Shown: piece after piece, positions 44,908 through 46,503 of the stretch | Layout: every line of letters starts with the position of its first letter | How positions within the stretch are numbered: the first letter of the stretch is position 1 | From: Brachyspira sp. SAP_772 | GTDB taxonomy: Bacteria; Spirochaetota; Brachyspiria; Brachyspirales; Brachyspiraceae | NCBI RefSeq assembly: GCF_009755885.1 | Contig: NZ_VYIX01000001.1 | Span: 310,001 to 374,000, forward strand | DNA: 64,000 nt | Direction of reading: 5' to 3' | Program-made: the position numbers and the translations under genes | The notes under the pieces: generated by a model | Told to the model about the DNA's origin: nothing | Database searches by the model: none | Seen by the model: the letters and a program-made list of their open reading frames with translations, nothing else

Positions 44908-44936
44908 TTGACATTACTTAATATTTATTGTAATAT
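44908..44936 (+). promoter_or_regulatory. Strong promoter of the CACCG leader and acyltransferase
   Basis: A perfect TTGACA and TAATAT spaced by exactly 17 bases. Transcription would start near 44943, about 20 bases before the leader ATG. Confidence 0.8.
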
Positions 44937-44962
44937 ATATAATAAAAAATCGGAGTAATCTT

Positions 44963-45091
44963 ATGCACCGCACCGCACCGCACCGCACCGCACCGCACCG
45001 CACCGCACCGCACCGCACCGCACCGCACCGCACTAAACTATTTATCTTTAAGTTTTCTATATATAACTTTTATAACATGGAGCTATACTAA
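44963..45091 (+). CDS. Leader ORF made of CACCG repeats (phase variable)
   Basis: A 42-codon ORF with GGAG 7 bases upstream of its ATG. Translated, it is Met, four copies of His-Arg-Thr-Ala-Pro, then HRTKLFIFKFSIYNF and six more residues. The 13 exact CACCG units are all inside the ORF. Because 5 is not a multiple of 3, gain or loss of a unit shifts the frame. With 13 units the stop TAA shares one base with the acyltransferase ATG (TAATG), ideal for translational coupling. With 12 units the first codon after the repeat is followed by TAA, ending translation about 55 bases short. With 14 units it ends 8 bases inside the acyltransferase gene. No frame can fuse with the enzyme, as TAA at 45073 closes its frame. 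Translation of the leader is inferred, not shown. Confidence 0.7.
   Translation: MHRTAPHRTAPHRTAPHRTAPHRTKLFIFKFSIYNFYNMELY
44966..45033 (+). repeat. Pentanucleotide tandem repeat (CACCG)13
   Basis: Thirteen perfect CACCG units plus CAC. This is the longest perfect tandem repeat seen and is 80% GC in DNA that is otherwise more than 70% A/T. Perfect identity of all units points to recent slippage. Confidence 0.97.
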
Positions 45092-46503
45092 TGCTTTTTA
45101 GTTCCATGATTTTTTTGTGGCTTTTTCTGCCAGTAGTTTTTATATCATATTATTTAATTAAAAAAGAATATAGAAATGTTTTATTATTAATAGCTAGTAT
45201 TATATTTTATGCTTGGGGCGGAGTTAGTTATACTCTGATAATGTTCTCTTCTATAGTCATTAACTATATTTTTGCATTATTAATAGATAGGGCTATAGAA
45301 GAAAATAATAAATCAAAAAAGAAAATATATTTAGCGTTATGTATAGTAATTAATTTATTAATATTAGGTTATTTCAAATATACCGATTTTGCTATATCAA
45401 TAATTAATTCAATATCAAAAAAAGAATTAATTTCATTAAAAAATATAATTTTACCAATAGGAATATCATTTTATACTTTTCAGGCTCTATCTTATGTAAT
45501 AGATGTTTATAGAGAACATAATAAGGCACAGAAAAATATTATTAATTTGGCATTATATATATCCTTTTTTCCGCAGTTAATAGCAGGTCCAATAGTTAAG
45601 TATCATGATATAGACACTCAAATAACGAATAGAACCGAGAGTTTAGAAAATATAAGTTATGGTATAAAGCGTTTTATATATGGACTATCTAAGAAAGTAA
45701 TACTTGCTAATATGTTTGCTTTATCTTGTGATGAAATATTAAAACAGCCCGTAGGAGAAATAGGTACAGCATTAGCTTGGGTGGCAGCAATTCTTTACAC
45801 ACTTCAGATATATTATGATTTTTCAGGTTATTCTGATATGGCAATAGGACTAGGGCATATGTTTGGGTTTAAGTTCTTAGAAAACTTTAATTATCCTTAT
45901 ATATCTAAATCAGTTCAAGAGTTTTGGAGGAGATGGCATATATCATTATCTACATGGTTTAAAGAATATTTATATATACCTTCAGGTGGAAACAGAAAAG
46001 GGAAATATTTTACTTATCTTAATTTATTTATAGTCTTTTTTGCTACAGGCTTATGGCATGGAGCTAGTTTCAATTTTATTCTTTGGGGCTTATGGCATGG
46101 ATTTTTCTTGATAATAGAGCGAATATTTTTAGGTAAGTTGTTGGAAAAGAATAAATTAAAATTTTTAAATCATATTTATGTAATATTCGTATTTTTATTA
46201 GGTTGGGTATTATTTAGAGCAAATAATTTAACTCATGCATTAGATTTATACAAATTAATGTTTAGTTATCATGAAAGTATTTATACAGTAAGATATTTCT
46301 TTTATCCTCAGACTTTAGTTTGTTTTATATTTGGAATATTATTCAGCGGATTATTTCAAAGTTTATTTCCAAAAGTTAAAGAAGCTATATTTTCAAGCAG
46401 AGTTTATATATTAGAAAGTATAATTCAATTCATACTATTGTTTATTTGTATTATGTATTTAGTTAATGGTACTTACAATCCATTTATTTACTTCAGATTT
46501 TAA
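45091..46503 (+). CDS. MBOAT family O-acyltransferase (AlgI-like)
   Basis: A 470-residue inner-membrane protein of the MBOAT family, the AlgI type that passes acyl groups (usually acetyl) from the cytoplasm to a periplasmic transferase. Features include IRYNVL-type first helices (LLLIASIIFYAWGGVSY), LPIGISFYTFQALSYVIDVYR, FFPQLIAGPIVKYHDI, YYDFSGYSDMAIGLGHMFGF, NFNYPYISKSVQEFWRRWHISLS, and the catalytic His in ATGLWHGASFNFILWGLWHG (about residue 318). It has its own ribosome-binding site (GGAG, 8 bases from the ATG) and also shares its start with the leader's stop codon. The partner that transfers the acyl group is the next gene, 15 bases downstream. Modification of a surface polysaccharide is the likely outcome. 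Confidence 0.92.
   Translation: MLFSSMIFLWLFLPVVFISYYLIKKEYRNVLLLIASIIFYAWGGVSYTLIMFSSIVINYIFALLIDRAIEENNKSKKKIYLALCIVINLLILGYFKYTDFAISIINSISKKELISLKNIILPIGISFYTFQALSYVIDVYREHNKAQKNIINLALYISFFPQLIAGPIVKYHDIDTQITNRTESLENISYGIKRFIYGLSKKVILANMFALSCDEILKQPVGEIGTALAWVAAILYTLQIYYDFSGYSDMAIGLGHMFGFKFLENFNYPYISKSVQEFWRRWHISLSTWFKEYLYIPSGGNRKGKYFTYLNLFIVFFATGLWHGASFNFILWGLWHGFFLIIERIFLGKLLEKNKLKFLNHIYVIFVFLLGWVLFRANNLTHALDLYKLMFSYHESIYTVRYFFYPQTLVCFIFGILFSGLFQSLFPKVKEAIFSSRVYILESIIQFILLFICIMYLVNGTYNPFIYFRF

Follow-up and report, generated by a model that had tools for sequence, protein, structure and literature searches.

How could a tandem repeat control a gene when it lies neither in the promoter nor in the coding frame of that gene? 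This question is raised by a locus in a stretch of 64,000 nucleotides from Brachyspira sp. SAP_772 (contig NZ_VYIX01000001.1, positions 310,001 to 374,000 of the forward strand), which is referred to below as the window. Here, a short leader open reading frame (ORF) that opens with a pentanucleotide array precedes the gene of an MBOAT-family membrane O-acyltransferase. Simple repeats are usually sorted into those acting in a promoter and those acting in the coding frame of the regulated gene, and a repeat in a leader ORF fits neither class. The best explanation, which we regard as quite probable, is a phase-variable switch based on translational coupling.

All elements of the locus lie on the forward strand. 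A promoter can be read at 44908-44936 (TTGACA at 44908-44913, a 17-nt spacer and TAATAT at 44931-44936), followed by a leader Shine-Dalgarno (SD) sequence, GGAG, at 44952-44955. The leader ORF (44963-45091, 42 codons) starts at the ATG at 44963 and ends with the TAA at 45089-45091, the last A of which is also the first base of the enzyme ATG at 45091 (TAATG). Tandem Repeats Finder (TRF) describes the array at 44965-45033 as 13.8 copies of the unit GCACC, (GCACC)13.8, with 100% match and a score of 138; this corresponds to 13 exact CACCG units at 44966-45030. A preliminary description of this DNA had listed the promoter, the ribosome-binding site, the ATG, the 13 CACCG units, the 42-codon ORF, the TAATG and the MBOAT gene, all correctly to the base. 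The array stands alone in its genome: in 3.04 Mb no further CACCG array of at least four units was found (the backwards control gave 0), and with a GC content of about 23% at the locus itself, chance does not account for it. It also has the mark of simple sequence repeat (SSR) phase variation, namely a tandem unit of 5 nt, not a multiple of 3, in the 5′ region of a gene. The preliminary description had further claimed that a change in repeat number shifts the leader stop. Recomputed relative to the A of the enzyme ATG, the leader ends with TAA at -57 for 12 units, TAA at -2 for 13 units and TAG at +8 for 14 units, so that the claim holds.

Is this design peculiar to one genome? The orthologs that were compared comprise the window genome (G000) and 15 others from a search of the genus, with one genome per species. 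In 16/16 of them the enzyme is preceded by an ATG, then by a pentanucleotide array free of stops, and finally by a tail. Most species have a unit of the CACCG type, while CACAG, CATCG, AACCG, CAATA or ACAGA types occur in the rest, in 5-16 exact copies. That these arrays lack stops in all frames is weak evidence, since 57% of random 5-mers at 27% GC qualify. Upstream, a TTGAC(A/T) box and, 15-17 nt further, a TA...T box occur in all 16, and in nearly all of them the leader ATG is preceded by an SD-like purine run, of which G001 and G019 have the weakest. In each ortholog, 28-50 nt separate the -10-like box from the array 3′ of it, and a transcriptional effect through promoter spacing was rejected on account of this position. 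In G019 (locus L054), the MBOAT ortholog itself is frameshifted near codon 58, and the leader array and the hairpin described below are still there.

The reading frames between array and enzyme show a consistent pattern. The enzyme's own frame contains a stop shortly 5′ of the ATG in every ortholog (TAA at 45073 in the window), so the array can never be fused with the enzyme, as the preliminary description had already held for this genome. In the frame +1 relative to the enzyme, the opposite is found: it is open from the array to the enzyme start region in 16/16 species, through leader tails of 48 to 231 nt with 9-24% GC. In the window, the tail occupies 45034-45088 and the +2 frame is open as well. 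The probability of finding the +1 frame open by chance is about 3e-8 (the product of dinucleotide-shuffle probabilities over 11 distinct tail types), an approximation that takes the tail types as independent and omits about 35 nt beside the enzyme that are common to many species. The stop of this frame, called the ON frame here, is located at -2 in the window species, G015 and G007, at -5 in G016, at +43 in G019 and at +16 (TGA) in most others. The ON-frame stop is thus near the enzyme start in all 16, as expected for translational coupling. The TAATG overlap is seen in just three of the 16 species, and it is not the conserved element. A second open frame, with its stop at +8, is present in six species including that of the window. 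The remaining frames stop mostly 46-171 nt 5′ of the enzyme, except at -18 in G016 and at -19 in G001 (where the ON-frame stop is at +16). The 16 assembled genomes comprise six whose array is set to the +1 register, three set to the +8 register and seven in which the leader stops early; a switch would be expected to give such a mixture.

What, then, would a ribosome arriving from the leader change? The enzyme SD (GGAG, 45079-45082) is part of the 5′ arm of a predicted 10-bp hairpin, CATGGAGCTA at 45076-45085. The 3′ arm, TAGTTCCATG at 45099-45108, covers enzyme codons 3-6, and the start codon sits in the loop. The fold has a predicted energy of -13.0 kcal/mol (z -4.1, 0/200 shuffles as good), and the SD is predicted to be paired with a probability of 0.999. 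The hairpin is kept in 15/16 species, with 94.5% of cells paired genus-wide vs 28-44% in controls with slid partners. In eight of nine folded orthologs z ranges from -3.1 to -6.0, with 0-2 of 200 shuffles equally good; its mean is -4.0 across the 16, compared with 0.11 for the start regions of ordinary window genes. When the enzyme start was recoded synonymously, the fraction of recodings as strong as the native fold was 0.003-0.052 in 14/16 species. Folded over its full 213 nt, the leader has an unremarkable minimum-energy structure (z -0.03), and only the local hairpin is unusual. The sole ortholog without it is G017, in which the array has decayed to 5 units and the SD is weak. A predicted and conserved structure thus appears to mask the enzyme SD just where a leader ribosome would enter it. 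Judged by sequence comparison, the conserved element is this SD-masking hairpin together with one open leader frame that enters it.

The same association can be observed in a second Brachyspira MBOAT family, which is about 41% identical to the first. An AAACC-type array was found in eight distinct copies, and the SD hairpin is present in 8/8 of these (mean z -5.0) vs 0/19 of the copies without an array (mean z +0.8). In the array copies, most leader stops fall around -2/+8 or between -35 and -42. The second family therefore seems to link array and hairpin in a separate gene; one of its array copies lies in the window genome (G000:C2:860655). In five members (L056, L058, L065, L066, L253) the leader ATG follows the TATAAT box by just about 8 nt, so that the leader mRNA may be leaderless.

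Closely related pairs suggest that the arrays change quickly. The enzyme genes of G002 and G020 are 94.6% identical with near-identical flanks, and the arrays contain 10 and 9 units, respectively, placing the leaders in different registers and hence different states. The enzyme genes of G004 and G006 are 93.5% identical and both flanks are common to them; the entire array consists of ATCGC in one and of ACCGC in the other. The one-unit difference and the unit swap form, as far as such pairs can tell, a pattern of fast array turnover. The left flank of the window locus is common to G012 and its right flank to G015 and G007. The repeat peptides (HRTAP, HSTAQ, HRIAS, QYNTI, TEQNR) and the tails are wholly different between species, and from this lack of conservation it follows that the leader acts in cis. 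Four contigs (G020:C9, G020:C216, G018:C16 and G018:C25) end within or just past CACCG arrays with near-identical flanks, which suggests that the assembly collapsed or broke up additional copies.

Of the two accepted models of translational coupling, one has an upstream ribosome unfold the RNA (PMC12548453), and the proposed switch would proceed as follows. The transcript encodes a short leader ORF that begins with the hypermutable (5-nt)n array, while the enzyme has an SD and ATG of its own, with the SD locked in the hairpin and the start codon in its loop. Replication slippage would alter the number of units by one or more, and because 5 is not divisible by 3, each slip would change the frame of the ribosomes leaving the array. 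In the right frame, these would cross the tail, enter the hairpin, keep its stem from closing and come to their stop at the enzyme start or just beyond it. Subsequently, they would re-initiate, or a new 30S subunit would bind, and the enzyme would be ON. In the other frame or frames, termination would occur at too great a distance upstream, usually at least 36 nt, and the hairpin would re-form, leaving the enzyme OFF or low. The leading edge of a ribosome reaches roughly 15 nt, for which reason ribosomes stopping that early could not hold the stem.

For the window species, 12 units are predicted to be OFF and 13 units, the assembled number, to be ON through the TAATG. The preliminary description had inferred a switching of acylation between levels. 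Fourteen units are probably not OFF but of the ON type like 13, since those ribosomes would cross the hairpin too. The earlier proposal of control by the leader stop survives as translational coupling through a stop that slippage would move, well supported by the 16 species and the second family, and loses the TAATG as its key.

Several points weigh against this interpretation. Covariation in the hairpin is no higher than in shuffles because the pair changes are nearly all one-sided G-C/G-U changes; the case for the hairpin is consequently built on its energy, the percentage of paired cells, the controls and the contrast between copies with and without an array. The eight array copies of the second family resemble one another, so 8/8 vs 0/19 reflects few independent events, and the position of the hairpin may have come down to both MBOAT families from an ancestor. 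When the SD hairpin was looked for at array-led genes of the genus (20 loci), it was clear at L152 alone, and the lipoprotein leaders do not have it; as a rule for all array-led genes of the genus, the hairpin was therefore rejected. Slippage within populations is deduced from differences between species. Finally, the enzyme SD (GGAG) is a good one, so the OFF state may be leaky.

Other explanations account for part of these observations. An array could work through mRNA stability, Rho-dependent polarity or the length of the 5′ untranslated region instead of through the opening of a hairpin. In the OFF frames a stretch of roughly 36-170 nt would go untranslated, such polarity is general (PMC12548453), and the lipoprotein leaders of the genus that do without an SD hairpin may work in this manner. 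However, polarity leaves unexplained why the SD hairpin comes and goes with the array in both enzyme families. Moreover, not every unit is C-rich (CAATA and ACAGA are not), which means that the array has no conserved Rho site; this explanation is considered improbable. An ordinary contingency gene, with the repeat in the 5′ end of the enzyme and fused in frame in one of three registers, would represent the commonest SSR mechanism, by which other arrays of the genus act (L076, L085, L097, L105, L146). Against it stand the stop upstream in the enzyme frame of all 16 species, on which in-frame fusion was rejected, and the homologs from other phyla, which begin aligning at residue 1 and thus start at the same place. 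There is hardly any likelihood left for it.

The product of the leader could also be the peptide itself, either an attenuator-like stalling peptide or a functional small protein. All species leave the leader open for translation, and many ON-frame tails are hydrophobic, but repeat peptide and tail differ wholly between species and two of the three registers truncate them. As its sequence is not conserved, a functional leader peptide was rejected; nor do the leaders show the conserved codons or the stalling motif of an attenuator, and we hold this explanation to be very unlikely. The probability that the array is a passive repeat or a recombination hot spot with no regulatory effect is similarly slight. 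Left and right flanks are differently combined among species, as expected if arrays promote exchange; yet this would not account for the +1 frame being open in 16/16, for the conservation of promoter, leader start and hairpin, or for the joint loss in G017.

The phase-variable coupling switch can be compared with several known systems. In Haemophilus influenzae lex2A/lex2B, a small ORF with a tetranucleotide repeat lies ahead of a glycosyltransferase gene. We know of no SD-hairpin analysis of this pair, which is a possible partial precedent and, if based on coupling, would be the nearest one. With coding-frame SSR phase variation, as in Neisseria pilC (PMC5320596) and Haemophilus lic, the Brachyspira locus shares slippage of a non-triplet repeat that shifts a reading frame, the expectation of heritable and reversible states and the typical choice of surface-glycan genes as targets. 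Here, however, the repeat is in a separate leader ORF, never in the regulated protein, and the output would be set by the leader stop relative to the SD hairpin. In transcriptional SSR variation, such as the poly-C tract between the -35 and -10 boxes of fetA (PMC5320596), the repeat number likewise acts downstream and leaves the protein unaltered, whereas the present array is transcribed and translated, 3′ of an unchanged promoter. The coupled pairs of phage f1 VII-IX, MS2 coat-lysis and rpmI-rplT (PMC12548453, PMC6728339) have a stop near a start and an SD hairpin. Unlike these, the Brachyspira leader is short and built of repeats, and its stop is expected to be mutable, making it a switch and not a fixed stoichiometric link. 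In Helicobacter pylori, the number of repeats in the mRNA leader also tunes expression post-transcriptionally: the variable G-tract of the tlpB leader is read by the small RNA RepG and affects lipopolysaccharide (PMC8295292). That tract is, in contrast, an untranslated homopolymer without a leader ORF. Among the open-access papers searched, we found no description of a repeat-driven leader-ORF switch or of phase variation by translational coupling, and no paper on phase variation in Brachyspira. A recent review of phase variation is silent on coupling, and a review of coupling is silent on phase variation. What would be new is a leader-ORF switch that combines SSR phase variation with translational coupling, both of them familiar on their own.

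The gene under this putative control (45091-46503) encodes 470 amino acids and matches the Pfam MBOAT model (PF03062, E 8.7e-33) with 114 bits, above the gathering score of 27. It is no equivalog of DltB, as it reaches 154 bits in the NCBIfam DltB model, far under the cut-off of 375. On the same strand and 15 nt 3′ of the MBOAT gene starts the gene of an AlgX-like SGNH-domain protein (46519-48849, PF16822, E 1.7e-11), the probable partner of the enzyme on one transcript. The order MBOAT, AlgX-like, RsgA is retained in most relatives. Between species, the AlgX-like protein is just 37-57% identical, compared with about 90% for MBOAT and about 95% for RsgA, and an internal duplication is seen in its N-terminal part. 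From the two protein families we infer that the phenotype would concern acetylation of a surface glycan. Elsewhere in the window, three related ankyrin-repeat genes stand in tandem (50811-52178); ankyrin genes are directly 5′ of the leader in G015, G020 and G002.

The design is not limited to the single locus that the preliminary description considered. The locus turns out to belong to a genus-wide set of pentanucleotide leader arrays. Such arrays occur right after an ATG in 20/26 Brachyspira genomes, and the same pattern was found in 0/5 other genomes of the order. Some belong to ordinary contingency genes, in which the array is fused in one register with a 554-aa protein (L076) or with HSDR_N/N6-methylase proteins. 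The latter arrays, (AGCAC)n at L085, L097, L105 and L146 in several Brachyspira species, mark a candidate phase-variable restriction-modification enzyme. At other loci the arrangement is like that of the window: one register reaches the start region of the next gene and two stop soon after the array. The stop of the reaching register is at +1 in L143/L153 and L106, at -6 in L152, at -15 in L084 and at -20 in L119. Most of these loci have no SD hairpin. The window genome has three further leader arrays, of (ATCGC), namely L080 (G000:C1:511685-511839, x31), L081 (C2:269458-269552, x19) and L082 (C2:914370-914499, x26). They open short ORFs before a lipoprotein-like or unknown gene, the start region of which is reached in one register. 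The tails of L080, L075, L082 and L069, before lipoprotein or unknown genes, have an element like TTTTTGCTATTGCAAAA in common, possibly a small hairpin. On balance, it is likely that Brachyspira uses phase-variable upstream ORFs genus-wide, each made up of an ATG and, behind it, a hypermutable pentanucleotide array that is never fused with the next gene, and that leader ribosomes either reach the masked start of that gene or do not.

If this is true, simple repeats would have a third route to control genes, beside promoter spacing and the coding frame, and this route would serve glycan O-acetylation, lipoproteins and other genes. The design spares the N-terminus of the enzyme. It would also make the state frequencies unequal, with the ON state in one frame of three in most species and in two of three in the window species. 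In annotation, a repeat in a leader ORF would tend to pass for intergenic sequence or for a hypothetical protein. For the gut spirochaete Brachyspira, the switch would suggest a molecular basis for surface variation.
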